Source of the DNA: Sphingopyxis sp. YR583
Lineage (GTDB): Bacteria; Pseudomonadota; Alphaproteobacteria; Sphingomonadales; Sphingomonadaceae
Length of the DNA: 64,000 bases
Assembly (NCBI RefSeq): GCF_900108295.1
Contig: NZ_FNWK01000001.1
Coordinates: 620,001 to 684,000 of the forward strand
Direction: 5' to 3'
Shown piece after piece: positions 10,586 to 24,672 of this stretch (position 1 is the first letter of the stretch; each line of letters opens with the position of its first letter). The notes under the pieces are model-generated. The model ran no database searches. It was not told the origin of the DNA and saw only the letters and a list, made by a program, of their open reading frames with translations. Position numbers and translations under genes: made by a program.

Positions 10586-10918
10586 CTATTCCGGACCGCC
10601 GCCCCTGCCCGGCACGGCGTCCGCCGCCGACGACGGCCATTCGCCCGGCGCATCGAACAGCACCGAGGAAAGCCCCTCCCCGACCGTCCAGCGCGCGCGC
10701 TCGAGATGCGAGCGCCAACAGCGCTCCGCCGCATCGGGGTCTGCCCCGACGTCGAGCAGCAGGATATCGGCGGCGGCAGCCGCCCAGTCATGGCCACCAT
10801 CAGCAGCGTCAAGCAGCCGCGCATAGGTCAGCATATGCCGCCTATCATAGTCGGTTACGGTCGCCGCATCGGGCGCCTCAGGAGACAGCGATGGCATTGC
10901 CCGGGGAAGAATAGTCAA
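10586..10918 (-). CDS. Small DUF2285 protein, QseM-like antiactivator candidate
   Basis: 110 residues. The core (YDRRHMLTYARLLDAADGG, then DWAAAAADILLLDVGADPD and ERCWRSHLERARW) matches what I know of small DUF2285 proteins. DUF2285 is a helix-turn-helix variant. In rhizobial ICEs the small DUF2285 protein QseM blocks both the LuxR-type activator TraR and the DUF2285 activator FseA. Here the gene is divergent from an XRE gene, the same arrangement as qseM-qseC, and lies near luxR, luxI and an FseA-like gene. The family call is fairly good; the antiactivator role is inference from context. Confidence 0.65.
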   Translation of the reverse strand: MTILPRAMPSLSPEAPDAATVTDYDRRHMLTYARLLDAADGGHDWAAAAADILLLDVGADPDAAERCWRSHLERARWTVGEGLSSVLFDAPGEWPSSAADAVPGRGGGPE

Positions 10919-10994
10919 CAGCTACGCTCTCGTATCGCCGATGGAGTATTATAATACGTAGCATCAAAATGCCCGCCTGTCCTCTAAGATCGGG
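10919..10994. promoter_or_regulatory. Divergent promoter region with AT palindrome
   Basis: The 76-base gap between the divergent DUF2285 and XRE genes contains GTATTATAATAC at 10946-10957, a perfect 12-bp palindrome that includes a TATAAT-like -10 element. It is a likely operator/promoter overlap for the XRE protein, which would then control both genes. Confidence 0.5.
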
Positions 10995-11225
10995 ATGGAC
11001 GTACGAAAACTCGTGGGCTGCAATGTGCATCGCTATCGCAAGGCGGCCGATCTGAGTCAGGAAGAGGTTGCAGCGCGGATGGGTGTCGACCGGGCGCATG
11101 TCGGGTTGATCGAGCGCGGCGAACAGAATGCGACCTTGCTGACGATCTGGAGTCTTTGCGAAGCGCTGAATGTCAGGCCGCAGGCGCTGTTCGACGAGGA
11201 TTATTATCGCGCGCACTGCCAATAG
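10995..11225 (+). CDS. XRE regulator, QseC-like candidate
   Basis: 76 residues, almost entirely one helix-turn-helix domain: NVHRYRKAADLSQEEVAARMG, then DRAHVGLIERGEQNATL. It is a typical small DNA-binding regulator. Its position, divergent from the DUF2285 gene with a shared 76-base intergenic region, matches QseC, which represses or activates qseM and its own gene in rhizobial ICEs. Sequence supports only the XRE family; the QseC role is inferred. Confidence 0.75.
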   Translation: MDVRKLVGCNVHRYRKAADLSQEEVAARMGVDRAHVGLIERGEQNATLLTIWSLCEALNVRPQALFDEDYYRAHCQ

Positions 11226-11354
11226 GCCGGCACGCCTTTCGCGGATATCAGGGCGTTCAAAAGCCGCTTAGTAAGGCTCTTCAAAACAACCCTTCCTGAC
11301 GAGCGAAGTCACGGTGCTTGGCAAGGGTTATTTCCTGGTCCCGGCTTCACTGCC

Positions 11355-11909
11355 TCAACCGGATGCGAGCATGGCGGCAGGCCCCCCGGCCCACATCGCA
11401 TGCGCGGCATCGACAAGCCGGCGGGCGCGCGACTTGATCCATTCGCCGTCGCCGGGCCATCCCTCCGCACAGACGATGCCTGTTCCGATCGCGCGGAGCG
11501 ACGCGCCTTCGCCAAGCGCGTCGATCGTCCGCAGGACACGGACCGCGCGCGCGCCGTCGATCTGGAACAATGGAGACGGCGCGGGAAATTCATCTTCGAG
11601 CAGCCATGCGCGGAGCCGCCGGAATTCGGCCAGCCGAAGCGGAAAATGGCTTCCGAAGTCAGTGCCGAAGCAGAATGGCGCAATCCCTGCTCCATCGCGC
11701 TGGACGAGATCGAAGCAAAGCCCGCTCCCGCTCTCTCCAATCAGGCAGTGCCGAACCGGGCCGCCGTCAACCACCCATGTGTTCGACAGACGCGGCAGAA
11801 AGTCGGCGAGATGCTCTGCCTCCTCACCCCAGAGACAAATGACCGAGGGATCGAGCGCGCGCGACCAGAGCAGCCGTGCGCCGGGCGCACGCCTCCCCGG
11901 ATCCTCAGC
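11355..11909 (-). CDS. FseA-like gene, C-terminal frame (DUF2285)
   Basis: This frame is open from 11909 to a stop at 11355 but has no start codon near its beginning; the first GTG is at 11774. It continues the preceding gene after a one-base shift: the text after HF becomes AEDPGRRAPGARLLWSRALD, the normal continuation of a DUF6499 domain. The DUF2285 part follows (LRLAEFRRLRAWL, then DGARAVRVLRTIDALGEGAS). With the upstream frame it gives about 260 residues. In FseA of rhizobial ICEs the two halves (Msi172 and Msi171) are joined by programmed +1 frameshifting. A disabling mutation or sequencing error is the alternative. Confidence 0.7.
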   Translation of the reverse strand, partial: AEDPGRRAPGARLLWSRALDPSVICLWGEEAEHLADFLPRLSNTWVVDGGPVRHCLIGESGSGLCFDLVQRDGAGIAPFCFGTDFGSHFPLRLAEFRRLRAWLLEDEFPAPSPLFQIDGARAVRVLRTIDALGEGASLRAIGTGIVCAEGWPGDGEWIKSRARRLVDAAHAMWAGGPAAMLASG

Positions 11910-12138
11910 GAAAGTGAAGCCCCCAGCGCGCGGTGAATTCGGCGCGCGCCGCAGGCAGGACGGGTTCGCTCACCCGCGCCGCGCCCGGTTCGCACGCCGC
12001 CGCCTCGGCATAGCCCGGCGTGCGGCGGAGTAGTTCCCAGGCGAGCCCGCGCCGCCCGCATGCTTCTAGACCTGCATAGGCGCCGGCTTCGCGCCAGCTG
12101 CCCGGCGGCAGTGCTGGCGTCAGCTCAATCTTGGCCAT
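11905..12138 (-). CDS. FseA-like gene, N-terminal frame (DUF6499)
   Basis: 77 residues from the ATG at 12138. The motif SWREAGAYAGLEACGRRGLAWELLRR and the end ARWGLHF are typical of DUF6499, which normally heads DUF6499-DUF2285 proteins. The frame stops at TGA 11905-11907, in the middle of the conserved segment WGLHF-AEDPG. The next part of the protein lies in the +1 frame. The start overlaps the end of the PhyH-like gene by 14 bases, so translation is probably coupled to the luxI-phyH transcript. This mirrors traI2-msi172-msi171 of ICEMlSymR7A. Confidence 0.7.
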   Translation of the reverse strand: MAKIELTPALPPGSWREAGAYAGLEACGRRGLAWELLRRTPGYAEAAACEPGAARVSEPVLPAARAEFTARWGLHFR

Positions 12139-13009
12139 GGCCTGCCGCACCGCGCTGCGCGGCGACATGCGCGCGGAGGGCCGCTTCCTGCTCGGGCAGC
12201 AACGCGTCGACCGCCGCGACATGCTCGCGGTGCTCGCCGCCTAGCAGGTATGACGGGCAGCGCCCCTCGACATTGCCGAGGTTGGGACGATGCTGCGCGT
12301 AACCGACGAGCGCCGCGAGATCGGGATCGAACGCCTTGGCCGCCTCGGGCGGATAGATGAGCCATGGCAGCTCGAAGGGTTTGAGCCAGCCAAGACAATA
12401 GCTGACGACGATGCCGCGGCGCGGCGCACCGCTCGCATTGCCGCCCGCGCCGTGGAGCGTGCCGCCGAGCCAGAGCAAGGCGTCGCCGGGCTGACATTCG
12501 GCCGCGACGGCATCCGCCTCATCGAACAGGCCACTGCCTTCCGCCTTGTGGCTTCCGGTCCAGAGGCGCGTCGCGCCATTCTCGGCGGTGAACGGCACGA
12601 GCGGCCACATCACGTTGATCTGGAAGTTCATCCCGCCCTTCGCGATCGGCCAAAGGTCATGATCACGGTGCGGATATTGGGCGAGCGCGCCGGGATGGAT
12701 TTCGATCGCCTGGGTGAGATTGAGCGCGATCCGGTCGCAGCCGGGTCCCAGCATATGCTCGGCGAGCAGCAGGATCGCGGGATGCATGACGAGCTCACGC
12801 GTTGCCGGCGCGCGCGTCAGCAGTCGCCCGAACCGCTTGGTGCGCTCGCCGAAGAAATCGCCGACGCAAAAGGGCGTCGCGGCGAAATCCGCCGCCAGCA
12901 TCGCGTCGATCCCAGCAATCACGCCCGGCGGCAGCGCATGGCGGACGAGACACCAGCCGTCGCGCTCCAGTCGCACAGGCGCGCTGTCGGGCGTGAACGC
13001 GCCCTTCAC
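12125..13009 (-). CDS. Phytanoyl-CoA dioxygenase (PhyH) family protein
   Basis: 294 residues. The iron-binding facial triad of Fe(II)/2-oxoglutarate oxygenases is visible: H114 and D116 in YPHRDHD and the distal H186 in GGTLHGAGGN, with a candidate 2-oxoglutarate-binding arginine at 197/198 (PRRGIVVSY). The substrate is unknown. The start overlaps the luxI stop by four bases (ATGA), and the end overlaps the FseA-like gene. PhyH-type genes next to luxI are known in sphingomonads, which suggests a role in making, modifying or responding to the acyl-homoserine lactone, but this is unproven. Confidence 0.85.
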   Translation of the reverse strand: MKGAFTPDSAPVRLERDGWCLVRHALPPGVIAGIDAMLAADFAATPFCVGDFFGERTKRFGRLLTRAPATRELVMHPAILLLAEHMLGPGCDRIALNLTQAIEIHPGALAQYPHRDHDLWPIAKGGMNFQINVMWPLVPFTAENGATRLWTGSHKAEGSGLFDEADAVAAECQPGDALLWLGGTLHGAGGNASGAPRRGIVVSYCLGWLKPFELPWLIYPPEAAKAFDPDLAALVGYAQHRPNLGNVEGRCPSYLLGGEHREHVAAVDALLPEQEAALRAHVAAQRGAAGHGQD

Positions 13010-13653
13010 TGCCCCGCTCCGCCCATGCCCGTCACAGCCGCCTCCGCGCCGTTCACCGCCACCATATCTTCAAGCCGGTGAATGCAATTGGCGTCGAGAT
13101 GCGCGGGCGTGTCTTCGCAGATATCGATCGCGAAGGCACCGAGGCGGCCACCGCCCATATCCTGCCCCGGCCCGAGCGCCTCGCCCTGCCAGCCCATCGC
13201 GAGCACCTGTTCGCGAAAGCGCGCGGTCACCACGCCGGTGAAGCGGCGGATGCCATGTTCGAGCGCATGATCGACCATCGCGCGGATCAAGCCATTGCGC
13301 AGTAGCCGCCGCTCGCTCGCAAGCTCGGTGGCGGGAAGGCAGAGGCGTGTGATCTCGAAAATGTCGGGCCCGACCGGCACGCCGTCCGTGCAAAGCCGCT
13401 CAAACATCGAGCCGAGAAGGTGCGGCCGCACGGAGGGCAAAAGGCGCATCGAGGCGCGATGCAGCCCGGCATCGTTCGCGACGATGATATAGGTTGCATA
13501 AGCGTCGTCGAAACGATCGATCTCGAAGCGCTCGTCGACGACGTCGAGATCCCAGTCGAGCAGGTCGACGAACAGGCGCTTGCGCGCTTCGAACATCGAG
13601 TTGAGGAGAGGCTGTTCGTGTGGTTCGCCGAGCCCTGCGATAATATGGATCAT
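13006..13653 (-). CDS. luxI: Acyl-homoserine-lactone synthase (LuxI family)
   Basis: 215 residues from the ATG at 13653, preceded by GGGAG with good spacing. LuxI landmarks are present: EARKRLFVDLLDWDLD (R, F, W), the acidic FEIDRFDDAYATYIIV, SMRLLPSVRPHLLG, and EITRLCLP with the conserved E and R. It makes an acyl-homoserine lactone from S-adenosylmethionine and an acyl carrier; the chain length cannot be read from sequence. It follows luxR by 53 bases and overlaps phyH by four bases. Confidence 0.92.
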   Translation of the reverse strand: MIHIIAGLGEPHEQPLLNSMFEARKRLFVDLLDWDLDVVDERFEIDRFDDAYATYIIVANDAGLHRASMRLLPSVRPHLLGSMFERLCTDGVPVGPDIFEITRLCLPATELASERRLLRNGLIRAMVDHALEHGIRRFTGVVTARFREQVLAMGWQGEALGPGQDMGGGRLGAFAIDICEDTPAHLDANCIHRLEDMVAVNGAEAAVTGMGGAGQ

Positions 13654-13662
13654 GTTTTGCTC

Positions 13663-13683
13663 CCTTGGAATTGAGCTCCAAGG
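13663..13683. promoter_or_regulatory. Palindrome directly upstream of luxI
   Basis: CCTTGGA at 13663-13669 and TCCAAGG at 13677-13683 form a perfect 7-bp inverted repeat with a 7-base centre, 21 bp in all. It lies 10 bases before the luxI start codon and abuts its ribosome-binding site. It could be a LuxR-type binding site, or an RNA hairpin that limits luxI translation. Confidence 0.55.
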
Positions 13684-13706
13684 AAAGCGGAAAACGCGAC
13701 CCCTTA

Positions 13707-14507
13707 TCAGTCGACCAAATGGAGGTATTTGCTGGGCAGAACTTCGTGCACGCCGACCTCGCCATCGAGCACCGCGGAGATGACGAGCTGGGTACGCGTG
13801 TGCGCCTCGTAGAGCTCGGATGCGCGCTGGATATAGGTTTTGACGGTGAAGTCGCTGATGCCGAGTTTGCGCGCGATCATCTTGTTCGACAGGCCGCGAC
13901 CGATGAGGACGATACAGTCGCGTTGCCGGGGCGTTAAACGCGCTACGCGAAATTCGCGAAGCCGTCCCCCGAGCATGATCCGCCGCGCCGCCTGAAAGGC
14001 ATAGCTGCCGACAAGATGGGCGGGCCCTACGAAACAGCGCGCGCGATCGGGATCGCGCGGCCCGCTGAAATGACAGGAACCGCTGCGCTCGCCCAGAACG
14101 AAGGACGGAACGGTGACACCATCGCTCACCCCCTCGCGCGCACCGGCCTCGATAAAGCGGCGGTGCCGCCGGTCGACCGTGATCAGCTCGCCGATCTGAT
14201 CCCAGGCGAAGCAGGCGTCGGCGGCGAGACAGGCGAGCACGACCGGATCGTTGCGATAGAGCTGCTCCGCAATGTAGCGCTCGGCATAGACTGCGGGGTA
14301 ATTCTGCATGTGAATTAGGCCCGGCGAACGTGACCGCGCATCGTCGTGATGGATCATCGCATAATGACGAAAATCCATGAAGCGCGCCGCGCCTTCGAGC
14401 AGGTCCTCGATCTCGCCAAGGCACGTCGCCGCGCGAACCGCGACGATGAAATCATCGGCAAACTCAAGCGCTTCCAGCCTGTCACGACAGGGCATCAGGA
14501 GGGACAA
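13707..14507 (-). CDS. luxR: LuxR-family quorum-sensing regulator
   Basis: 266 residues. The N-terminal autoinducer-binding domain contains YAERYIAEQLYRNDPVV (Y and D of the ligand pocket; the usual first tryptophan is replaced by tyrosine) and FAWDQI. The C-terminal GerE/LuxR helix-turn-helix is LTPRQRDCIVLIGRGLSNKM, then KLGISDFTVKTYIQRA (about residues 190-235). It is directly upstream of luxI on the same strand. With its ligand it should activate luxI-phyH-fseA and possibly its own gene through the dyad at 14655-14677. A truncated relative lies at 21952-22173. Confidence 0.92.
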   Translation of the reverse strand: MSLLMPCRDRLEALEFADDFIVAVRAATCLGEIEDLLEGAARFMDFRHYAMIHHDDARSRSPGLIHMQNYPAVYAERYIAEQLYRNDPVVLACLAADACFAWDQIGELITVDRRHRRFIEAGAREGVSDGVTVPSFVLGERSGSCHFSGPRDPDRARCFVGPAHLVGSYAFQAARRIMLGGRLREFRVARLTPRQRDCIVLIGRGLSNKMIARKLGISDFTVKTYIQRASELYEAHTRTQLVISAVLDGEVGVHEVLPSKYLHLVD

Positions 14508-14780
14508 AGGGCCGGACGAGCGGCATCAGGGAAAAAAAGGAAATACATTCGCACAACGGCCCAACGTGCGAGAGTCGGATGTCCGCACATTGCCGGACGA
14601 TTATTCAGCAATCGGGTTCTGGTTCCGCGCATGATCGGCGCCCGAGGCGCTACCCCTGTACCGGGCTTCCATACAGGAGCAGGCAATTCAACCTCGCCGC
14701 GAATCGGGCCATTACGGCGATAACGCGCCACCGCAACGGCGGGCATCGGGCGCAAGGTTACGAACGCGATGGAGTATTGA
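14508..14780. other. luxR upstream region
   Basis: No gene is supported on the minus strand. The stretch carries the candidate lux box and is matched, with scattered differences, by 22174-22400, which indicates an old duplication of the luxR 5' region. Confidence 0.5.
14655..14677. promoter_or_regulatory. Candidate lux box upstream of luxR
   Basis: CCTGTA (14655-14660) and TACAGG (14672-14677) form a dyad spaced by 11 bases, about 150 bases upstream of luxR. A diverged copy of this region at 22323-22350 keeps the dyad in perfected form, with 10-bp arms. Conservation of the palindrome between diverged copies supports function. Confidence 0.6.
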
Positions 14781-15008
14781 ATGCCTGAGGTTTCGAATGA
14801 GCTTTTATGGCTGATCGCGATCTGCACCGGATCGGGCTATGCTATCGCGGCCATTATTCGCGAAGCCTGTCAGGGTGCCGCCACCATAATAAGGGCGCGA
14901 CGCGGCGACACGGAACTCCCTCATGGCGGACCTTCCATGCGCGGGCTGTTCATCGGCTTCACGCGACCAGGTGCCGGCCCGGGTCACGGAGCCGACGATG
15001 CTGGTTGA
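14781..15008 (+). CDS. Possible small membrane peptide
   Basis: 75 codons. The first ~30 residues (MPEVSNELLWLIAICTGSGY, then AIAAIIREACQG) could form one membrane helix with basic residues after it. GGAG at 14771-14774 is well spaced from the ATG. The second half looks like low-quality coding sequence, so only the beginning may be meaningful. Low confidence; no family recognised. Confidence 0.3.
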   Translation: MPEVSNELLWLIAICTGSGYAIAAIIREACQGAATIIRARRGDTELPHGGPSMRGLFIGFTRPGAGPGHGADDAG

Positions 15009-15177
15009 ACCACGCCCACCCAAGCGACGGCGACGATCCTGCGAGCCTACGACCTCGTCGCCCTACTTCATATCTGTCTGGTGCGGTTTCCGAACCGGTC
15101 GATGCGAAGAGACGGCCCCCGACGCGCCCCAACTCCTGGACATGGTGTCGCCATCCGCGCAGAGACTCGGCATCTTC

Positions 15178-15690
15178 TCAGGAAAGCGTGCGCCGAACAT
15201 CCTTCAGGAGAAGGGAGAGGTGATAATTGTCGGTGAGCGACGGCCCGAACCCATAGCGCTCGTAGAATTCCCTCGCATCATCGTCCTTCTCATGAACGAC
15301 GATCGCACGTATGCCACCCAGCTCGGCCGCCTGCAAGGTCCGCAGCACTGCATCCTTGAGCAGACCCGCTCCAAGCCCCTTGCCCTGATAGCCTATCGCG
15401 ATGGCCAGCCGCGCGATCAGAATGATCAGCACGGGATGCCTTGGCATTCCCTTGGTCAGCCGTTCCGGAGCATCGTCATACGCCACTTCGCCTACGACCA
15501 AACTATAGAAGCCGACGACGCGCTCTCCATCCATCGCCACATAGCTATTGGCAGAACCGGTCTGCTGGCTCTGGAGAGCGTGACGATCCAGAAAGCGGTT
15601 CAGCGGCTCCTTGCCGCAATCGAAACCGGCGACCACGTGGGTACGCGCGAGCTTTTCAATGCGCAGCGCACCCACTCTGGCACCGCTCAT
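15178..15690 (-). CDS. GNAT acetyltransferase toxin (TacT-like)
   Basis: 170 residues with the GNAT fold layout: FDCGKEPLNRFLDRHALQSQ near the N-terminus, ARLAIAIGYQGKGLGAGLL (acetyl-CoA-binding Q/RxxGxG/A motif, here YQGKGLG) and DDDAREFYERYGF near the end. This subfamily acetylates aminoacyl-tRNA and stops translation (TacT, AtaT). Its start overlaps the DUF1778 gene stop by four bases, the standard antitoxin-toxin layout. Confidence 0.9.
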   Translation of the reverse strand: MSGARVGALRIEKLARTHVVAGFDCGKEPLNRFLDRHALQSQQTGSANSYVAMDGERVVGFYSLVVGEVAYDDAPERLTKGMPRHPVLIILIARLAIAIGYQGKGLGAGLLKDAVLRTLQAAELGGIRAIVVHEKDDDAREFYERYGFGPSLTDNYHLSLLLKDVRRTLS

Positions 15691-15977
15691 TTTGCGCGCG
15701 GTTGCTCAAAAACACTCGGCTCGCTCAGCAACTTCCGCAATGTCTCGACTGGCTTGGGGGGCGCATCCAGGGCCGTCTGAAACGCATCCCAACGCTCGGC
15801 ATCGAGACCGAATATTGTCCGGTCGGGAAGCGTCTCGGCTGCGCGCGCGAGGGCGCTTTCGATCACGAATTCGCTCACCGAGCGCGAACTCGCCAGCGCC
15901 GCCGTTTGCAGAATGCGCTTGGCGCTAGCGGTAAGACGCAGATCGAGTTTTTCAGTACGGGCAGCAGCGCGAGGCAT
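15687..15977 (-). CDS. DUF1778 antitoxin (TacA-like)
   Basis: 96 residues from the ATG at 15977, which follows AAGGAG; the frame upstream to 16019 is not needed. The N-terminal ribbon-helix-helix is RTEKLDLRLTASAKRILQTA, and the C-terminal tail (RWDAFQTALDAPPKPVETLR) is the toxin-wrapping segment. A TTGTCGTGACAA dyad at 16019-16030 is a likely operator. It neutralises the GNAT toxin encoded next. Confidence 0.9.
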   Translation of the reverse strand: MPRAAARTEKLDLRLTASAKRILQTAALASSRSVSEFVIESALARAAETLPDRTIFGLDAERWDAFQTALDAPPKPVETLRKLLSEPSVFEQPRAK

Positions 15978-16148
15978 TGGGAATCTCCTTGCCGCCGATA
16001 TAGCAATTTCGCCCGACATTGTCGTGACAATTCCTGCTTATGAAAATGCGCACGACACCGATGATGAGAGCAGCCCGACCGTCGGCAATGACGTCAGCCC
16101 TTGCTCGACCTCCATCGGGGCCCGGAGTCCTCCATAGCGACGCAAGCC

Positions 16149-16269
16149 GTTATCCCACATATTCACAAAATTCAAAAATGCGGGATAATGCTTCATTTTA
16201 CTGATCTATTACTCAGTTCAAGAACATGTTATCCCGCATAATGATCAATTCGGACATATGCGGGATAAC
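16149..16269. promoter_or_regulatory. Two paired inverted repeats upstream of the GSU2403-type gene
   Basis: Four copies of one 12-base half-site: GTTATCCCACAT at 16149-16160, ATGCGGGATAAT at 16178-16189, GTTATCCCGCAT at 16228-16239 and ATGCGGGATAAC at 16258-16269. They form two dyads with 17- and 18-base centres, and the dyads repeat with a period of about 80 bases. The last half-site ends three bases before the ATG at 16273. This looks like a strong autoregulatory operator. Confidence 0.8.
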
Positions 16270-16272
16270 GCC

Positions 16273-17277
16273 ATGAATGCGATGAAACCCTTTACCGACG
16301 AGCAGCTGCGGACGCTTATCAACCTGCGCCAGCGCTATGAGGGCTGGATCGACGCGGAGCGACGTTGGGCTGCCCTGCCCTATGACCTCCGCCGCAAGGA
16401 GGTCAAAGGCCGTGCCTATCTCTACGAGATCTTCGACCGGTCGGGCAATGGGCGCAGCCTTGGACCATGGTCGGACGAACTCGAAGCCCGGTTCGAGGCC
16501 TATCGCGCGGCCAAGGAAGATATCAAGACACGCCGCGAGGCGAGCCGGGGTCCGCTGGACGAATCGGCGAGGCTGGCGCAGGCGCTGCGTATCCCGATGA
16601 TCGCAAGCGAGGCCGGACCGATCCTGCGCGAAGCCGATCGCCGCGGACTGCTGGACGGCTCGTTGCTGGTCGTCGGCACCAATGCCATCGCCGCCTATGC
16701 CCTGGAAGCCAACGGGTTTATTCGCGAGCTACCCGACGAGACGGCGGATTTCGATCTCGCGTGGATCGAGAGCGATACGACGCGCGACGAGCAGGTTTTG
16801 TGGAACATGCTGAAGGCGGTCGACCCCACCTTCACGGTCAATACCGAACGCACATTCCAGGCACGCAATGCCAAGGCCTATGAGGTGGAAGTGCTGGTGG
16901 CGCCGTCGCGCGCCGGCACAATGGCGCGCACCGACCGCCCCCGCCCCGTACCGCTTCCCGAGCAGGAATGGCTGCTGAACGGCAAGGCCGTCGACCAGGT
17001 GCTTGTGTGCCGTGACGGAAGCCCGGTCCGCATCGTGGCACCCGATCCGCGATGGTTTGCGCTGCAGAAAATCTGGATGTCGGAGCAGGCGAAGCGCAAT
17101 CCGCAAAAGCGCGGCAAGGACGCAAAGCAGGGAGCGCTATTGCTCGACGCGATCGAGATCGCGATGCCGCATTATCCGCTTGACGAGAATTTCGAGTGCG
17201 GCCTCCCCGGCGAGCTGGCACCGCTCTACCTCCGCTGGGCGGAGCAACGCCCCCAGAGGCGGGCACCCGGCTGGTGA
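16273..17277 (+). CDS. GSU2403-family nucleotidyltransferase-fold protein
   Basis: About 334 residues. A helical N-terminal part (EQLRTLINLRQRYEGWIDAE) precedes a nucleotidyltransferase-like domain with LLVVGTNAIAAYALEANG (around 130-148) and ETADFDLAWIES (around 155-166), the acidic pair expected for metal binding. This fits the GSU2403-type nucleotidyltransferase family. The biological role is not established; related folds act as toxins or AbiEii-like defence enzymes. The start is placed at 16273 because the upstream in-frame codons fall inside an operator half-site; 16282 is also possible. No partner gene is adjacent. Confidence 0.75.
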   Translation: MNAMKPFTDEQLRTLINLRQRYEGWIDAERRWAALPYDLRRKEVKGRAYLYEIFDRSGNGRSLGPWSDELEARFEAYRAAKEDIKTRREASRGPLDESARLAQALRIPMIASEAGPILREADRRGLLDGSLLVVGTNAIAAYALEANGFIRELPDETADFDLAWIESDTTRDEQVLWNMLKAVDPTFTVNTERTFQARNAKAYEVEVLVAPSRAGTMARTDRPRPVPLPEQEWLLNGKAVDQVLVCRDGSPVRIVAPDPRWFALQKIWMSEQAKRNPQKRGKDAKQGALLLDAIEIAMPHYPLDENFECGLPGELAPLYLRWAEQRPQRRAPGW

Positions 17278-17349
17278 GAAAAGGCACGTCCGCAATGGGC
17301 CATATTTCAGGCCCGCTATGGATTCTATTTCCCGGCATCGCTCTAACAG

Positions 17350-17368
17350 CCCCCCCCCCCCAAAAAAA
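17350..17368. repeat. C12-A7 homopolymer run
   Basis: Twelve C (17350-17361) followed by seven A (17362-17368) in the spacer before the dprA-like gene. Runs of this length are slippage-prone and also prone to sequencing error. Confidence 0.9.
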
Positions 17369-17436
17369 TACCGGTCGGTTCAGATGCCTGCGAGACAGGA
17401 ACCGGATCGGAGACGATATGTGTCGGTTTCGACTGC

Positions 17437-18366
17437 GTGCGGGCCGAAGCCGCGCGTCTAGAAGATGTGACGCCAAACTACCACGCTCCGCCCCCGGCGC
17501 CCTCGCCCGCGACGGCACCGATCTCACCGCGCCTCGAAATGGGCGCCTATGAGACGCTGTGGCTCGCGCCAAATGCCAGCTTCAAGACGCTCGCCGAGCT
17601 CTTCGCGCAAAACCCCGGCAAGCGCCCGTCCGATTTCACGAACCACCCAGACGCCGAAGCGAATGCTTCGCGCGCGCTCGCCAAGTTGCTCGGCGGAGGC
17701 GTGCGCAATTTTTCAACACGCATTCACGGCACCGGCGAATATCCAATCCGACTGCGCGACGCGCGCCACCCTGTCGAGCTTCTCTACTATCAGGGTGCGT
17801 GGGAGTTGGCGGAAACGCGCGCGGCCGCAGTCGTCGGCACCCGTGATCCCAGCCCCGAAAGCATCAAACGCGCACAGCGCGTGGCGCGTGAACTCGCCGA
17901 GCGCGGCATAACCGTCATCTCCGGCCTCGCGCGCGGCATTGACACGGCCGCGCTGCGCAGCGCCATCGAGGCGGGCGGCAAGGTGATCGGGGTCATTGGC
18001 ACGCCGCTCGGCGTCACTTATCCGCCCGAGAACAGGAAACTGCAGGAACGGATCGCCGAAGAGCATCTGCTCATCAGCCAGGTGCCGCTGCTGCGCTATG
18101 CCGCGCAGACGCCGCAGCACAACCGCTTCTTCTTCCCCGAACGCAACGCGACGATGAGCGCGCTCAGCGAAGCGACGATCATCGTCGAAGCCGGCGAGAC
18201 CTCGGGTACGCTGACGCAGGCGCGCGCGGCGATCTACCAGCGGCGCAAACTGCTCATCCTCGAAAGCTGCTTCCAGCACCCCGGCCTCAAATGGCCCGCG
18301 CGCTACGAAGCGCAGGGCGCGATCCGCATCCGCACCTCCGAAGACCTTGCGCGGGCGCTGCCATGA
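17437..18366 (+). CDS. DprA/Smf-like (SLOG) protein
   Basis: About 309 residues. An N-terminal part of ~100 residues precedes a DprA Rossmann domain with AAVVGTRDPSP, VISGLARGIDTAALRSAIE, KVIGVIGTPLGVTYPPENRK, FPERNATMSALSEATIIVEA and SGTLTQARAA. The C-terminal winged helix of full DprA is absent. DprA loads RecA on incoming DNA, but SLOG-family proteins also act in nucleotide-linked defence systems. The stop overlaps the ATG of a phosphoribosyltransferase gene (ATGA), and a third small gene follows, so I infer a defence-type operon rather than a competence gene. The GTG at 17437 is uncertain; ATG 17539 is an alternative start. Confidence 0.8.
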   Translation: MRAEAARLEDVTPNYHAPPPAPSPATAPISPRLEMGAYETLWLAPNASFKTLAELFAQNPGKRPSDFTNHPDAEANASRALAKLLGGGVRNFSTRIHGTGEYPIRLRDARHPVELLYYQGAWELAETRAAAVVGTRDPSPESIKRAQRVARELAERGITVISGLARGIDTAALRSAIEAGGKVIGVIGTPLGVTYPPENRKLQERIAEEHLLISQVPLLRYAAQTPQHNRFFFPERNATMSALSEATIIVEAGETSGTLTQARAAIYQRRKLLILESCFQHPGLKWPARYEAQGAIRIRTSEDLARALP

Positions 18367-19001
18367 TCCGCTTCAGCCAGATCGACGCCGGCAACCGGTG
18401 GGCGCACACGATGCTCACCGCGGACGACCTCTGCTATTATCTCTACGAATATACACCAGGGCGCGGGCATGAGAGCAGCTGCACCAACATGCTGATCCGC
18501 AACCTCAAGAAAAAGCCGAGCCAGTCGGACAAGCCGGGCTATCGCTTCAAGGACAGGGCGATCGAGCGCTGCGCCGAGCACTTACGCGAAGCGCTCGATC
18601 CTCAATGGGCAAAACAAGCCACCTTCATCCCCGTCCCCGGCTCGAAGGCGGCAAGTCACCCCGATCATGACGACCGAATCGAACGGATATGCCGAAACAT
18701 CGCATCCGACCTCGATGTCCGCCCACTCGTCACGCAGCGCTTCTCGACCAACGCCGCACATGAATCCGGCAAGGGCGGCCGGGTCACGGTCGAGAAGCTC
18801 GTCCGCATGTATGAGATCGATGAGACCCAAGCAGACCCCGAACCGCGCGCCTTCGCGATCGTCGACGATGTGCTGACCTCGGGCACGCACTACCGCGCGG
18901 TCCAGACTAAGCTTGTCACCCGCTGGCCGGGCGTGCCGATCATCGGCCTCTTCATTGCCCGCCGGATATTCGCGCCGGGAAAAGGCAGAAACCAGACGTG
19001 A
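18363..19001 (+). CDS. Phosphoribosyltransferase-like protein, partner of the DprA-like gene
   Basis: 212 residues from the ATG at 18363, in a four-base overlap with the dprA-like stop. The PRPP-binding loop of type I phosphoribosyltransferases is clear: AFAIVDDVLTSGTHYRAV (around residues 162-179). Upstream, TFIPVPGSKAASHPDHDDRI resembles the segment that precedes the active site in ComF-like enzymes. The substrate is unknown. DprA-like and PRTase genes are co-translated, and the next gene overlaps by four bases (GTGA). Confidence 0.8.
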   Translation: MIRFSQIDAGNRWAHTMLTADDLCYYLYEYTPGRGHESSCTNMLIRNLKKKPSQSDKPGYRFKDRAIERCAEHLREALDPQWAKQATFIPVPGSKAASHPDHDDRIERICRNIASDLDVRPLVTQRFSTNAAHESGKGGRVTVEKLVRMYEIDETQADPEPRAFAIVDDVLTSGTHYRAVQTKLVTRWPGVPIIGLFIARRIFAPGKGRNQT

Positions 19002-19183
19002 CGCATCCGAAGCCGATCGAACCAGGACATGCTACCAGCGAGGTGCAAGCATCCGGAACGAAGCTGTCAGCTCTCGACCGAGCCATTGTCCGAGGTCTTG
19101 CAGACTCCGAGACAGGCCGGACGAAGCCAGCGCAAGAGATATTCGCCAGGCTCGCAAGGGAGATTCCCGGGACAAGCGACTAA
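18998..19183 (+). CDS. Small antitoxin-like protein, third gene of the DprA operon
   Basis: 61 residues from a GTG at 18998 that overlaps the PRTase stop (GTGA). The C-terminal half, DRAIVRGLADSETGRTKPAQ followed by EIFARLAREI, has the shape of RelB/ParD-type antitoxin tails. The tight overlap makes it likely to be real despite its size. No toxin gene follows on the same strand; the next genes (higA, higB) are on the opposite strand. Confidence 0.55.
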   Translation: MTHPKPIEPGHATSEVQASGTKLSALDRAIVRGLADSETGRTKPAQEIFARLAREIPGTSD

Positions 19184-19228
19184 CACCGGGCAAGCGCCGG
19201 GAGTGAGAATGGACGCTCGCACGCAGGC

Positions 19229-19552
19229 TCAGGCAGCCGCGACGGCGCGGACCTCAATCGCGACACCGAGGCGCCGACGTACCGCCCCAAAAATCGCCGC
19301 CAGATTGTCCATGCTGGGATTGCCATTCTCCGACAGCATCCGGTGCAGACTCTTGCTGGGGCGATCAGTCTCGCTCGCCAAAGCCTCGAACCCGAAGGAC
19401 GCGTTGACGAGGTCGCGGAGGATCAACCGCGCGAGCTGCGGTTCGCCATTGAGGAAGGCCGACGCAGCCTCGTCGAGCATGGCCTTGCCAAAGGCGGGAT
19501 CGCGCGCGGCGCGTTCCTTCACCGTCTCTTTGAAATCCCGGGTCAACGCCAT
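19229..19552 (-). CDS. higA: HigA-type antitoxin (addiction-module antidote)
   Basis: 107 residues from the ATG at 19552. The C-terminal helix-turn-helix (LASETDRPSKSLHRMLSENG and NPSMDNLAAIFGAVRRRLG) and the N-terminal LTRDFKETVKERAARDPAF fit the HigA-like antidote family. It follows the toxin gene by four bases, the toxin-first order typical of higBA. Confidence 0.85.
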   Translation of the reverse strand: MALTRDFKETVKERAARDPAFGKAMLDEAASAFLNGEPQLARLILRDLVNASFGFEALASETDRPSKSLHRMLSENGNPSMDNLAAIFGAVRRRLGVAIEVRAVAAA

Positions 19553-19556
19553 GCCA

Positions 19557-19895
19557 TCACCTCTTCGCTTTCTTTGTCGCGGCCTTGCGCGCCTTATATT
19601 CACCAAGCAACGCGCCGGCGAACGCGATATCGGCCTGCTGCCGCTTCTTCGTCCCGCCCACGAACAGGATGATAAGCTCATCCCCGTCCCGGGTCAGATA
19701 GATGCGGTACCCCGGCCCCCAGTCGATCCGATATTCACCGAGCCCGCCGCCGATCCATTTCACATTCGATATGTTACCGAGCTCGAGCCGCAGGACCGCG
19801 GTCGCCACCTTGGCCGCGGCCTGATTGTCCACTCTCCCGAACCAGGATCGAAACGGGCAGGAACCGTCCTCGCGCACATATTCCTCAACGATCAC
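19557..19895 (-). CDS. higB: HigB/RelE-type mRNA interferase toxin
   Basis: About 112 residues from a GTG at 19895 preceded by GGGGG; a TTG at 19913 would add six residues but abuts the operator. The pattern RLELGNISNVKWIGGGLGEY, RIDWGPGYRIYLTRDGDELI and FVGGTKKRQQADI matches the addiction-module killer (HigB-like) family, which cleaves mRNA at the ribosome. It is followed directly by the antitoxin gene. Confidence 0.85.
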   Translation of the reverse strand: MIVEEYVREDGSCPFRSWFGRVDNQAAAKVATAVLRLELGNISNVKWIGGGLGEYRIDWGPGYRIYLTRDGDELIILFVGGTKKRQQADIAFAGALLGEYKARKAATKKAKR

Positions 19896-19913
19896 TATTC
19901 GAGCCCCCAACAA

Positions 19914-19929
19914 GTAACATATATGTTAC
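19914..19929. promoter_or_regulatory. higBA operator
   Basis: GTAACATATATGTTAC is a perfect 16-bp palindrome just upstream of higB. It overlaps an AT-rich promoter-like segment and is the expected site for HigA autorepression. Confidence 0.75.
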
Positions 19930-19951
19930 CATATGTCTACCCGCTCCGACA

Positions 19952-21037
19952 TCACCGGCCACGCACAGCATCCAGACCCCGGCGCTTGTGGACAACGTGG
20001 AGGGGATAGAATTCGAAATAGTCATGCTCGTCGAACCAGGCGCAGACGAAGTCGAAGAGGCGAAGGTTCATGCGGCGCGACAGGGCGAGCGCATAGACCA
20101 TGAGCTGGACGATCGGCTTTTCCTTCGCCGCCTTGGGCTTGTAGTCGAGGATATGGATCTTGCCGCCGCGCAATTGCACGATGTCGATATGGCCGGTGAG
20201 GATATTGCTGTCGTCCAGCGGGACATCGAACCCCGCCACTTCCCGAAAATGCCGGATGTCCTCGGGCGTCAGATAGATGGGCACCTCGACCGCGACGGTG
20301 GCGGCATCGACATGGAGCATGAAGCGCTGCAGTTCGTCGTGCCGGCGCTTGTTGACGGTCACGGTCTGCAGCACGAGATGCGCAAGACGGCAGGCATGAT
20401 TATGCGTAGCCGTGATCGCAACCGCATCAATATCGAACGGCGCCTTGCCCTGCGACGCGCGCGCGTCGGTCGCGAACAGGCTGTGCGGACAGTCGGTCAT
20501 CATATGCGCGAGATAGATTCCGAGCGGGCGGACCGTCGCATATTCTTCTTGCCCGAGGATCCAGGCGAGCTTCGCGCGGTGGACGCAATATTTATAGACC
20601 TGCTTGTGATGGAGGCGGACCGAGCGGACGAGCTGCTTGGGACTATAGACACCCTGCGCCGCACCCCGCACCCGATCATAGCCGGTGAGTTCGCGATATT
20701 CGGCGAGCCATGAGCTGAGGGTGCGCCCCGGCACCGCGATCCCGAACCGCTCCTTGATGATCGCCGACGTCCGCTCGCGGGTCTCCCCCGAATAATAGAC
20801 GATCAGGCTCTCGAGAATGATCTTCAGCGGATAATGTTTGCCCTTGGCGCGGACCGGCAGGAAGGTGCGACGGCATGTCCGGCATTGCCAGCGCTGCACG
20901 GTCTCGAAGGTCTTGCGATAGGTGCCCTTCCGGATCAGCGATGCACCGCCGCAGAAAGGACAGGCCTCCAGCACCTCCCCGACCACCGCCGGCAGCGCAG
21001 CCCGCCCCCGGACACTCAGCTCCACATCGCGCCGCAT
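19952..21037 (-). CDS. Zinc-ribbon/HTH protein with a PD-(D/E)XK nuclease domain
   Basis: 361 residues from the ATG at 21037 (GGGAGGGAAC ahead of it). The N-terminus has a transposase-like zinc ribbon, CPFCGG (C26, C29) and CRTCRRTF (C52, C55), followed by a helix-turn-helix region (KIILESLIVYYSGETRERTS to RTLSSWLAEYRELTG). The C-terminus has a RecB/Cas4-type nuclease core: GHIDIVQ (D285), HILDYKPKA (D298 and K300) and the QLMVY motif (Q311, Y315). The first half recalls the DNA-recognition part of IS1-like transposases. It may be an unusual transposase or a DNA-targeting nuclease. No terminal repeats were seen around it, and there is no adjacent partner on the same strand. Confidence 0.7.
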   Translation of the reverse strand: MRRDVELSVRGRAALPAVVGEVLEACPFCGGASLIRKGTYRKTFETVQRWQCRTCRRTFLPVRAKGKHYPLKIILESLIVYYSGETRERTSAIIKERFGIAVPGRTLSSWLAEYRELTGYDRVRGAAQGVYSPKQLVRSVRLHHKQVYKYCVHRAKLAWILGQEEYATVRPLGIYLAHMMTDCPHSLFATDARASQGKAPFDIDAVAITATHNHACRLAHLVLQTVTVNKRRHDELQRFMLHVDAATVAVEVPIYLTPEDIRHFREVAGFDVPLDDSNILTGHIDIVQLRGGKIHILDYKPKAAKEKPIVQLMVYALALSRRMNLRLFDFVCAWFDEHDYFEFYPLHVVHKRRGLDAVRGR

Positions 21038-21951
<914 letters not shown>

Positions 21952-22173
21952 CTAGATTGCGGGGTAATTTAGCATATGAATGAGACCCGACGAACGCGAC
22001 CGCGCATCATCATGATGGATCATCGCATAATGACGAAAATCCATGAAGCGCGCCGCGCCTTCGAGCAGGTCTTCGATTTCCCCAAGGCTCGTCGCCAAAC
22101 GAACCGCGAGAATGAAATCATCGGCAAACGCCAGCGCTTCAAGCCTGTCGCGGCACGGCATCAGGAGAGACAA
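21952..22173 (-). pseudogene. Truncated luxR copy
   Basis: The predicted peptide (MPCRDRLEALAFADDFILAV, then GARFMDFRHYAMIHHDDARS and up to NYPAI) matches residues 5-72 of the LuxR at 13707-14507 with scattered substitutions, then stops. The ligand-binding tyrosines and the whole DNA-binding domain are missing. The original ATG position has become TTG. Similarity continues upstream through the regulatory region, so a whole 5' segment was duplicated and then diverged. Confidence 0.85.
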
Positions 22174-22476
22174 AGCGCCGGACGACCGGCGCAGAATGAT
22201 AAAAGGAACTATATCGGCACAACGGCTTAACGTGCAGGATACCCATGTCCGCAATCGCCGAAGCAATTTCTTCACGGACCTTCGCAACCGCCATCACTCC
22301 CAGCAAGGCGCAAACCGATCGAGCTCCTGTATCGGGTCTTATACAGGAGCAGGCAATTCAACTTACGGGCAGATCGCAGCATGACAGCTGCAACGCGCGA
22401 CCGCTCAAATGGGCAGTGAGCGCTGGACGACGGAAGCGATGGAGTGCGACATGCTCGAAGGCAAGCCCGAACCGGA
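22174..22476. other. Duplicated luxR upstream region
   Basis: It is a diverged counterpart of 14508-14780, containing the perfect dyad above. A nine-codon frame beginning at 22451 corresponds in position to the start of the small frame at 14781. No gene is supported. Confidence 0.5.
22323..22350. promoter_or_regulatory. Second candidate lux box, upstream of the truncated luxR
   Basis: GCTCCTGTAT (22323-22332) and ATACAGGAGC (22341-22350) are exact 10-bp arms with an 8-base centre. The corresponding site upstream of the intact luxR (14655-14677) keeps CCTGTA and TACAGG. The arms are better paired here, although the downstream gene is dead. Confidence 0.6.
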
Positions 22477-22824
22477 TTAGTCGATCTCGGTGAGATCGAT
22501 GACATGACCTTCCGGATCCTCGATCGTGGCAGTGCGCCCCCACTCGGTTACCTGTGGCGCCCGGACGAGACGGCCAAAGCCGGACTCGACCTGCCGGCAA
22601 TGGCCATCGAGATCGGTCACGGCGAAGCCGATCCTTACGCCGCGAGTATGGGTGTGTGCCTCGCTGCACGGATAGATCTCGAAAATCCCGTGGCCGGTAT
22701 CGCACGCCATATGAAGCGGCCCGGAACCATGTTTCTCGGGAGTGAAACGAAGTCCGAGCCCCGTATAGAAGCCCGCCAGCCTCTCCGGATTATGCGCGCG
22801 CAGAACGAGCAGGTTAAGCTGCAT
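22477..22824 (-). CDS. VOC/glyoxalase-family protein
   Basis: 115 residues with one vicinal-oxygen-chelate fold: NLLVLRAHNPERLAGFYTGL at the start, IGFAVTDLDGHCRQVE in the middle and IEDPEGHVIDLTEI at the end. Glyoxalase, dioxygenase and antibiotic-binding proteins share this fold, and the substrate cannot be told. It overlaps the upstream XRE gene by 11 bases, so it may be carried with that TA-like pair. Confidence 0.85.
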   Translation of the reverse strand: MQLNLLVLRAHNPERLAGFYTGLGLRFTPEKHGSGPLHMACDTGHGIFEIYPCSEAHTHTRGVRIGFAVTDLDGHCRQVESGFGRLVRAPQVTEWGRTATIEDPEGHVIDLTEID

Positions 22825-23362
22825 GCCGCACTCTCACTTTCCTGCGCACGGGATCGACGGGTTCGATCGCAGCCTCAAGGGACGAGAAACGGGCGCGAAG
22901 CTCCAACGTCCCTCCCATCGCAGCGAGGAAGTCCAACAAGGTGCTGATCTTCATATCCGCGGCATTCTCGATCTTGGATATACGGGCCTGGTCGAGGTTC
23001 AACGCCTTGGCGACATCGCCCTGCGTTTCTCCCAACAAATGTCGCAGCTCGTTCAATCGCAAGGCATGATGCGTTGCATCCTTCTTCCATTGCGCCGCGA
23101 GTTGCAGCACGCGCGCTCCGGCTTCGGTAGCCTTGCGATAAATTTCCTGCGGCCGCGCGCCGAAGCCGGTCTCGCGAACATAGACACCAAAACCGGATGA
23201 TTTTTGCCAAAGTATCTGACTCTGCATCCCGTCGATCTCGATATCGATCCACCATTCACCATCAGCTTTTGCCGGCGCATCGACATCGACCGCCGCCGCG
23301 ACTTCGGATCGAACCGCGTCGATGAACTCGCCGATAGCCTTTGGGAGGGTTGGGCTAGTCAT
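22814..23362 (-). CDS. XRE-family candidate antitoxin
   Basis: 182 residues. The C-terminal half has a helix-turn-helix (RHLLGETQGDVAKALNLDQA and KIENAADMKISTLLDFLAAM) ending in GGTLELRARF, as in HigA/MqsA-type antitoxins. The N-terminal ~85 residues (EWWIDIEIDG to QEIYRKATEAG) form a separate, unrecognised domain. The start overlaps the stop of the 126-residue upstream gene by four bases, a TA-like layout. Confidence 0.7.
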   Translation of the reverse strand: MTSPTLPKAIGEFIDAVRSEVAAAVDVDAPAKADGEWWIDIEIDGMQSQILWQKSSGFGVYVRETGFGARPQEIYRKATEAGARVLQLAAQWKKDATHHALRLNELRHLLGETQGDVAKALNLDQARISKIENAADMKISTLLDFLAAMGGTLELRARFSSLEAAIEPVDPVRRKVRVRHAA

Positions 23363-23739
23363 AACTCGATACTCCTCTGACCGCTGTCGGCCTTGTTCAA
23401 AAGGATGTTGCCATTCCGATCGCAGATCAAGATCGCTCCGCTTGCGCTGATAAAGCTGTTATGACCCCGACTGCGATAGCGATGCAGATCGGTCCGCCCC
23501 GGCACATCCCGCCGGGCATCGGGGCGCGGCGGATACATGCGCCCATCATCGAGCGGATAGCCGGCGTCGAACACGATACCGGAGAGTTCGTCCTCGACCT
23601 CGATCAGGATGCGACCGAGAAGTGCGAAGGCCTCATCGCGAGTGGCGCATGCCGGCGCCGCCAGCAAACGGCGGAAGAATTCCTCAAGACGATCAGCTAA
23701 ACTCAGCATGTCAGAAGCGACATATTCACTTTTTGGCAT
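23359..23739 (-). CDS. Unrecognised small protein, candidate toxin
   Basis: 126 residues, no family recognised. An N-terminal helical part (MLSLADRLEEFFRRLLAAP) is followed by a compact C-terminal part rich in R, H and D (DLHRYRSRGHNSFISASGAI, then CDRNGNILLNK). Size, charge pattern and the four-base overlap with a downstream XRE gene suggest the toxin of a TA pair. This is inference from layout only. Confidence 0.5.
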   Translation of the reverse strand: MPKSEYVASDMLSLADRLEEFFRRLLAAPACATRDEAFALLGRILIEVEDELSGIVFDAGYPLDDGRMYPPRPDARRDVPGRTDLHRYRSRGHNSFISASGAILICDRNGNILLNKADSGQRSIEL

Positions 23740-23914
23740 ATTTGCAAGCCGCCAGCTTCACTTGTGCCGATCGTTGCCCGCCCACGACAGTCTAACGAAC
23801 GCTGAAGGAGACTAGGAGCACCGTTAACGCTCCGAACCCGAAACAGTCCATATCGGAAACAGTTACCGTGCCGAGAACCTGCGGTATCCGAGAGCCGGTG
23901 CGTCTGAGGGATTG

Positions 23915-24672
23915 ATGCATGGTGAAAAGCTTCCACTTGAACCAAGCCGCCCCGCGGTTGCACCCATTTCGCCGCGCCTCGAGATGGGTGCCTATGAGAC
24001 GCTTTGGCTCATACCCAATGCCAGCTTCAAGACGCTCGCCGAACGCTTCGCGCAGAACGCGACCAAACGCCCGTCCGATTTTGTGGACCACGAGGAAGCC
24101 GAAACAAACGCATCACGCGCGCTCGCCAAGCTGCTGGGCGGCGGCGTACGAAACTTTTCGACACGCATCCACGGCACCGGCGAATATCCCGCGCGCCTGC
24201 GCGACGCACGCCACCCGGTCGAACTTCTCTATTACCAAGGCGCATGGGAACTGACCGAGACGCGATCGGCGGCGGTCGTCGGCACCCGCGATCCCAGTCC
24301 CGAAGGCATCAAACGCGCACAGCGCGTCGCCCGCGAACTGGCCGAGCGCGGCATCACGGTCATTTCGGGACTCGCGCGCGGTGTCGACACGGCGGCACTT
24401 CGCGGCGCGATGGAAGCAGGCGGCAAGGTCATCGCGGTGATCGGAACCCCGCTCGGCGTCACTTATCCGCCCGAGAACCGGAAGCTTCAGGAGCGCATCG
24501 CCGAAGAGCATCTGCTCATCAGCCAGGTGCCGGTGCTGCGCTATGCCGCGCAGACGCCGCAGCATAACCGCTTCTTCTTCCCCGAGCGCAATGCGACAAT
24601 GAGCGCGCTCAGCGAAGCGACGATCATCATCGAGGCCGGAGAGACATCAGGCACGCTGACGCAGGCACGCGC
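23915..24672 (+). pseudogene. 3'-truncated second dprA-like gene
   Basis: It begins at an ATG (23915) with GAGGG ahead. From ISPRLEMGAYETLWL onward it is nearly identical in protein sequence to the DprA-like protein at 17437-18366. The match ends at SGTLTQARA (about 24672); beyond this the DNA is the antisense of a patatin gene. The last ~55 residues and the PRTase partner are missing, so it is most likely non-functional. Confidence 0.85.

Follow-up and report, generated by a model that had tools for sequence, protein, structure and literature searches.

The 64,000-nucleotide stretch analysed here (the window; C1:620001-684000, C1 being contig NZ_FNWK01000001.1 of Sphingopyxis sp. YR583) carries luxR, luxI, phyH, a two-frame fseA and qseM on one strand, with a divergent xre gene between the last two (Table 1; coordinates below 64,000 are window positions). 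This set is very probably a quorum-sensing circuit of the FseA/QseM type, acting through N-acyl-homoserine lactones (AHLs), and the control head of a decayed integrative and conjugative element (ICE), with its mechanism assigned by homology to ICEMlSym-R7A. An earlier note, made from the sequence of the window, had proposed R7A-type logic, which is now supported by the domains, the gene order, the frameshift site and the structure-family match of QseM, and further by relatives in which the module continues into rdf, traF and a transglycosylase gene. Its picture of an overlapping, same-strand set holds for strand and order, and for the overlaps of luxI with phyH (4 bp) and of phyH with the DUF6499 frame (14 bp), but not for luxR and luxI, which are 53 bp apart. 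The luxI gene has no other match at E ≤ 0.001 within its own genome.

Table 1. Features of the quorum-sensing locus and of the element genes to its left
Feature	Position	Strand	Evidence or remark
luxR, AHL-responsive regulator (predicted TraR role)	13707..14507	-	Pfam Autoind_bind 4.3e-24, GerE 1.7e-11
RNA hairpin, 3' arm carrying the luxI Shine-Dalgarno sequence AAGGGAG	13659..13688	-	fold -16.9 kcal/mol, z -3.24
luxI, AHL synthase	13006..13653	-	Pfam Autoind_synth 1.7e-16
phyH, Fe(II)/2-oxoglutarate oxygenase, luxI-linked subfamily	12125..13009	-	Pfam PhyH 2.4e-25
fseA part 1, DUF6499 frame (msi172 counterpart)	11905..12138	-	PF20109 7e-13; AWELLRRT motif in translation
Putative +1 programmed frameshift site TGG GGG CTT CAC TTT C GC TGA	11905..11925	-	in-frame site, 15/19 tandem loci
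fseA part 2, +1 frame: middle domain and DUF2285 (msi171 counterpart)	11355..11912, including stop codon	-	PF10074 4e-7
xre, QseC-like divergent regulator	10995..11225	+	HTH_3 3.3e-14; 86% identity to G315 copy
GTATTATAATAC palindrome, candidate QseC operator	10946..10957	no strand	within 32-bp run identical to G315 intergenic
qseM, putative antiactivator (likely start ATG 10897)	10586..10918	-	profile A1 vs PDB 7uqt 1.5e-14; charge -9
Decayed second copy, luxR 5' end	21948..22190	-	88% identical direct repeat of 14282-14524
traF	C1:586465-587022		own element, left of window
Transglycosylase	C1:585905-586477		own element, left of window
ArdC	C1:562587-563579		own element, left of window
ParB	C1:560353-562077		own element, left of window
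DUF736	C1:558834-559157		own element, left of window
Relaxase	C1:555684-557666		DUF3363 3e-132, Relaxase 3e-5
Chimera of TraG and CagX/TrbG-type protein	C1:550785-551963		TrbI directly after
TrbI	C1:549619-550788		own element, left of window
HTH_17 gene, 54 amino acids	C1:536181-536345		convergent with integrase
Integrase	C1:534958-536190		adjoins tRNA-Asn 534727-534801

The fseA frameshift site and the qseM-xre cassette

The stretch from 11355 to 12138, taken in the earlier note for one gene, is 784 bp in two frames: the DUF6499 frame ends WGLHFR-stop at 11905, and DUF2285 carries on in the +1 frame, each domain matching its Pfam model. For comparison, we examined 18 other loci in which a same-strand DUF6499 match comes after luxI-phyH, making 19 tandem loci with the window; they were picked partly for a nearby DUF6499, and the downstream extent of their DNA varies, so counts over them describe the module and are not rates. 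The motif TGGGG-N7-TTTC lies in the DUF6499 frame at 15 of the 19, the window included, and from the site DUF2285 is open for 179-198 amino acids in the +1 frame at those 15. The CAC preceding TTTC is identical in 15/15, though not demanded by the search, and at the remaining four loci (L090, L092, L096, and L099) DUF6499 and DUF2285 share one frame. For msi172/msi171, the accessible text of PMC10359603 describes a low-frequency +1 programmed frameshift that yields FseA, with the conserved WGL encoded by UGGGGG; the fseA of the window probably uses a conserved +1 site of the same kind. Translating fseA with a code in which TTTC stands for F does not work, as a second TTTC is also in frame. The window DUF6499 reads AWELLRRT as compared to the published AWEFLRRN of the R7A system. 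Of the 298 family genomes, 103 contain DUF6499, and the DUF2285 family profile has a single PDB match up to E = 0.1, RovC (6xz5, E = 0.0046).

The neighbouring 110-amino-acid protein had been presented as a DUF2285 protein encoded divergently from an XRE gene. The divergence is confirmed, with a candidate operator palindrome between the two genes, whereas kinship with DUF2285 emerges only through a family profile: as a single sequence the protein has no Pfam DUF2285 match. Its counterparts in relatives (family A1, 14 sequences) have a clear common pattern, and the A1 profile finds a single significant match in PDB, 7uqt, ‘Quorum sensing master protein’ (E = 1.5e-14; ribosomal proteins follow, at E values of at least 0.4). 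Net charge is negative in 13 of the 14 A1 translations, the exception, L086, being translated from an over-long start, and the profile matches in 69/298 family genomes at E ≤ 1e-8. Through this profile the product can be assigned as a putative QseM antiactivator, whose conserved part likely begins near ATG 10897, not TTG 10918. The XRE protein of the window is 86% identical to that of relative G315 and only 29% to that of G343, as compared to 71-78% for luxI and phyH between the window and four genus relatives. Window and G315 also share a 32-bp identical run, including the palindrome GTATTATAATAC, between qseM and xre. This contrast and the common run look like the exchange of a repressor-operator cassette, as seen at two loci; such QseC-operator cassettes may be swapped between related heads much as phage immunity modules are.

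The order luxR, luxI, phyH, DUF6499/DUF2285, divergent xre, qseM is complete at 13 of the 18 other tandem loci; at L092, L093, L097, L099, and L105, our searches failed to detect at least one part. At 10 of the 18, the module leads, at once or past cargo, into an rdf-like helix-turn-helix (HTH) gene, a TraF-type S26 peptidase gene and a lytic transglycosylase gene, and G308 has the TraF-type peptidase and transglycosylase downstream of the module. A copy of ∼2.5 kb at 71-73% DNA identity occurs in 4 of 60 genomes of the window's genus. Gene calls give G300 and G315 an unbroken traG-trb run, in which Pfam confirmed, for G300, TraG (second half), TrbE, TrbI, TrbC, TrbL, VirB8/TrbF-type and CagX/TrbG-type proteins and a T2SSE ATPase at the TrbB place, and gave no confirmation at the TrbJ and TrbD places. 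In both genomes traG consists of two overlapping open reading frames (L131 5039-7043 and L134 16557-18561), a common break that may be ancestral. A variant locus, L095 (G114:C1:2682433), has no fseA match: luxR, xre and qseM are followed by luxI-phyH running directly into rdf-traF-transglycosylase.

PhyH as a partner of LuxI

The earlier note regarded phyH as an insertion between luxI and the activator. It is instead a general luxI partner in sphingomonads, already in print as such in the accessible text of PMC3704786, PMC4288048, and PMC5012321. We took 40 further phyH loci of the family down the PhyH match list regardless of FseA (the top-ranking ones belonged to the first set already, some were left out, and L160 and L172 are short): luxI is present at 37, FseA domains at 16, conjugation genes at 15, and FseA or conjugation genes at 23. 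PhyH therefore travels with luxI and not with any single output, and the 37 of 40 rule out a chance local insertion. Thirty-eight of 85 matching plasmid records carry this PhyH at 51-60% identity with coverage of 80% or more; identity then drops to 35% in the following record (among the best 60 of the 85). Across six regions phyH comes after luxI in five; the Methylocystis record has a partial luxI-like match before phyH.

Residues H114, D116, H186, R197, and R198 of PhyH are invariant in 21 aligned sequences, and we take H114, D116, H186, and R197/198 to be the positions of the Fe and 2-oxoglutarate ligands. The nearest solved structures are Fe/2-oxoglutarate oxygenases, e.g. AndA (1.9e-29), a match that does not tell the substrate; in the accessible text of PMC5012321, the bacterial PhyH reaction is ‘yet-to-be described’. 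In the same text, plasmids listed with novI genes yielded C8-OH and C10-OH AHLs in Agrobacterium; these plasmids still gave hydroxy-AHLs, so we rejected PhyH as their required source, and it does not seem to be required for them.

Candidate target sites and the element left of the window

An inverted repeat GTGTCG-N16-22-CGACAC lies upstream of rdf in 10 of 14 rdf genes inspected, 7 of the 10 being 31 bp long, and the repeat-bearing genes are those of the ten tandem loci that continue into rdf. The published FseA box, in the available part of PMC10359603, consists of a pair of inverted hexamers, spaced 15-16 bp, upstream of PrdfS; the repeats fit it and are candidate FseA-binding sites, although they stand ∼100 bp from the rdf start codon, farther than in the R7A logo, as far as that source gives it. 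Across 180 loci scanned, the pattern occurs in 21. Ten are the rdf sites, and L142, with an additional copy before its rdf, is the eleventh. L126 and L177 are one place (own-genome 552031), and L176 and L178-L180 carry other own-genome sites. Matches inside called genes (L174, L129) or inside a transglycosylase match (L095/L065, one place) were dropped as chance. The own genome holds the pattern at eight places, and at none when it is read backwards. The best, C1:552031 (score 21.5; next site 20.3), lies ∼70 bp upstream of the TraG-TrbG chimera and is suggestive only as an FseA box. A lux box upstream of luxI is clear in many tandem relatives, and in 12 of 17 leaders of tandem type the best palindrome stands 61-75 bp ahead of luxI. 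In the luxR-luxI stretch of L048, L086, L089, L090, and L096, a near-identical palindrome, AACCCGAGTAATCACTCGGTCT, is centred 67-73 bp before luxI and is a candidate LuxR box of that clade.

The statement in the earlier note that no integrase or conjugation gene is visible stands for the 64 kb, within the reach of the reference proteins, but not for the contig, where, at 43-96 kb to the left of the module, element genes follow the order of G300 and G315 read backwards (Table 1). An integrase and a relaxase, sought in the flanks, are among them; there is no rdf-like match before traF or anywhere in C1:515000-660000. The TraG-TrbG chimera is a deletion fusion, and the element has no VirB4/TrbE match, the two in the genome being elsewhere (C1:1431770 and C3:65339). 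From qseM to traF the distance is 43 kb, as compared to ∼0.4 kb in G300 and G343, which, with the missing parts, makes the element decayed or at least rearranged. The earlier suggestion of a remnant or the edge of a larger element is borne out: the locus appears as an ICE head without rdf before traF and without much of trb. What we take to be repeated clusters resembling TonB receptor, FecR, sigma factor and pitrilysin genes occur in C1:565000-687000, including much of the window, and these TonB-type clusters between the element parts may have driven rearrangement.

A phyH fragment (G000:C1:563977-564330; 58% identity, one stop) adjoins the own-element ArdC gene. Within 14282-24250, two direct repeats at 6.4-7.7 kb spacing (the luxR start, 88%, and a dprA-like gene, 81%) form a partial second copy of the stretch and adjoin toxin-antitoxin and transposase-like genes; a second dprA-like gene lies inside the window.

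Several observations weigh against the control head of a decayed ICE. None of the 40 additional phyH loci yielded a QseM match, which confines the complete circuit to one class of phyH loci. The 43-kb gap leaves the common origin of module and element to rest on collinearity. A second copy of the 31-base tRNA end, expected of attR, was not found in C1:515000-704000, and the right end was not located; a 12-bp repeat at 684440, considered as an attR candidate, is within a TonB-type gene and was taken as chance. The box is absent at the rdf genes of L095, L101, L103, and the own element at 1.40 Mb, as well as from the window, and C1:552031 scores 21.5, whereas the ten boxes from which the motif was derived score 27.5-36.7. 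The lux box of the window is weak (5/9 pairs, z -0.5). Finally, the HTH_17 gene beside the integrase could be another excisionase, and excision is perhaps not wholly lost. A similar HTH_17 gene stands after TrbI in G300 and G315.

Two other fates of the module have to be weighed here. The host might have kept luxR-luxI-phyH-fseA-qseM as a domesticated chromosomal circuit for host or cargo genes, e.g. the neighbouring TonB clusters, and in its favour the frames remain open, with the family motifs intact, despite the loss of rdf before traF and of TrbE. Yet the window has no FseA-box-like site, there is no sign of new targets, and decay is perhaps simply recent; we consider domestication improbable. 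A dying remnant without present function, its genes open only through young decay, has somewhat more in its favour but is still rather unlikely: the deletion chimera, the missing rdf, the fragments at C1:563977 and 21948 and the weak lux box are signs of decay, whereas the frameshift site, the leader hairpin and the 32-bp qseM-xre footprint common with a relative have been kept. Under the preferred reading, in which the module is the head of a decayed ICE, the element retains integrase, relaxase, traF and transglycosylase; with rdf before traF and much of trb gone, the circuit would at most control these remaining genes or act in trans on a sister element. Since C1:1.40 Mb carries another FseA together with an HTH-traF-transglycosylase set of its own, cross-talk between the two elements is possible.

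The luxI leader, a proposed mechanism, and known systems

A predicted hairpin covers the luxI Shine-Dalgarno (SD) site in the window (z = -3.24 against dinucleotide shuffles), and that of G343 is a perfect 16-bp stem (z = -9.62). Across 40 luxI leaders, the probability that the SD pairs with upstream sequence has a median of 0.86, as compared to 0.55 for 713 other gene starts; among 34 held-out leaders (four duplicates removed, and three loci without luxI) the median is 0.83, as compared to 0.54 over 469 control starts (p = 1.2e-6, a value that is too small because the leaders are related to one another), with 10 of the 34 not above 0.70. Control starts came from a simple gene caller, with luxI itself left in the 40-leader controls and purged from the 34-leader controls. 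RNAalifold, applied to 18 leaders in an ordinary alignment, found no consensus pairs, and no covariation is claimed; the evidence is the comparison with other gene starts, which gives good support to a hairpin over the SD site.

The hairpin may act as a read-through lock, a tentative reading in which the ribosome site would be folded shut on luxI mRNA read through from luxR, whereas mRNA begun at the quorum promoter, lacking the hairpin 5' arm, might escape. The available part of PMC5882170 places the transcription start of R7A-type elements 44 bp downstream of the box centre. We cut 74 leaders at box+44, with the box sought at -76 to -60 only, and median SD pairing fell from 0.83 to 0.57, the level of the controls (0.66 to 0.58; 310 starts, cut at -26). 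Beyond the lack of consensus pairs, several results speak against a lock: only 8 of the 74 leaders (11%, as compared to 8.7% of controls) pass cleanly from pairing above 0.6 to pairing below 0.4, 30 of the 74 remain above 0.6, and two of the strongest hairpins, those of G343 and G300, are still at 0.68. The lux-box position is favoured in the discovery set (28/40 as compared to 16.7 expected) but weakly in the held-out set (19/34 as compared to 14.5). These same counts, and the short gap between luxR and luxI, would suit a switch acting by temperature or translational coupling, or general damping, alternatives against which the fall to control level after truncation argues, and which we also hold as possible without favouring them. 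If the hairpin works as a lock, it would be a simple means of holding quorum signalling off until luxI's own promoter fires. Our searches of the open-licence literature turned up no paper on an SD-hiding luxI leader (subscription papers were outside the search).

Drawing on features visible in the DNA (a frameshift site, an inverted-repeat box, a leader hairpin and the loss of transfer genes), and by homology for the regulation, we propose that LuxR with its AHL would activate a luxI-phyH-fseA operon, by analogy with ICEMlSym-R7A. Ribosomes would slip +1 at UUU-C, joining DUF6499 to DUF2285 as FseA, which would switch on rdf and the transfer genes via the inverted-repeat box found in the relatives; QseM would block FseA, and QseC would set qseM. 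More speculatively, and we think it doubtful, sphingomonad mobile elements may share a three-part quorum head composed of a hairpin-locked luxI, a PhyH with the AHL signal or a precursor of it as substrate, and interchangeable outputs. If so, PhyH would tie the quorum signal to oxygen and 2-oxoglutarate, and the outputs would be a frameshifted FseA-QseM, a direct rdf-traF, or virB operons.

Sphingomonads disseminate pollutant-degradation genes via mobile elements. The locus joins two lines of work, one on sphingomonad luxI-phyH loci and the other on Mesorhizobium FseA/QseM control of ICE transfer. We found no paper linking phyH with FseA or ICEs in the open-licence literature, subscription papers being outside the search, and the accessible text of PMC4288048 and PMC3704786 does not use the term DUF2285. 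With the sphingomonad loci of PMC4288048, as far as that text describes them, the window shares the luxI-phyH pair, in one subfamily with 49-60% identity to the plasmid copies. In two topology-T plasmids, ‘X’ is a 112-113-amino-acid protein with no match to FseA, which rules it out as FseA for those two. With TraR/TraI2-msi172-msi171(FseA)-QseC-QseM of ICEMlSym-R7A, as described in the available parts of PMC10359603 and PMC5882170, the window shares the order luxR-luxI-DUF6499/DUF2285-divergent xre/qseM, the +1 frameshift site at WGL/UGGGGG, the QseM family and, in the window's relatives, the inverted-hexamer box upstream of rdf; it differs in having phyH between luxI and fseA and in lacking, in its own genome, rdf before traF and TrbE, while the SD-hiding hairpin stands beside a comparison that covered R7A apart from its leader. 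The whole module, with the rdf-like HTH gene, traF and transglycosylase, also occurs on pBPS33-2 of Hydrogenophaga sp. BPS33 (NZ_CP044551.1), which differs in being a conjugative plasmid that carries the module between IS1071 copies.

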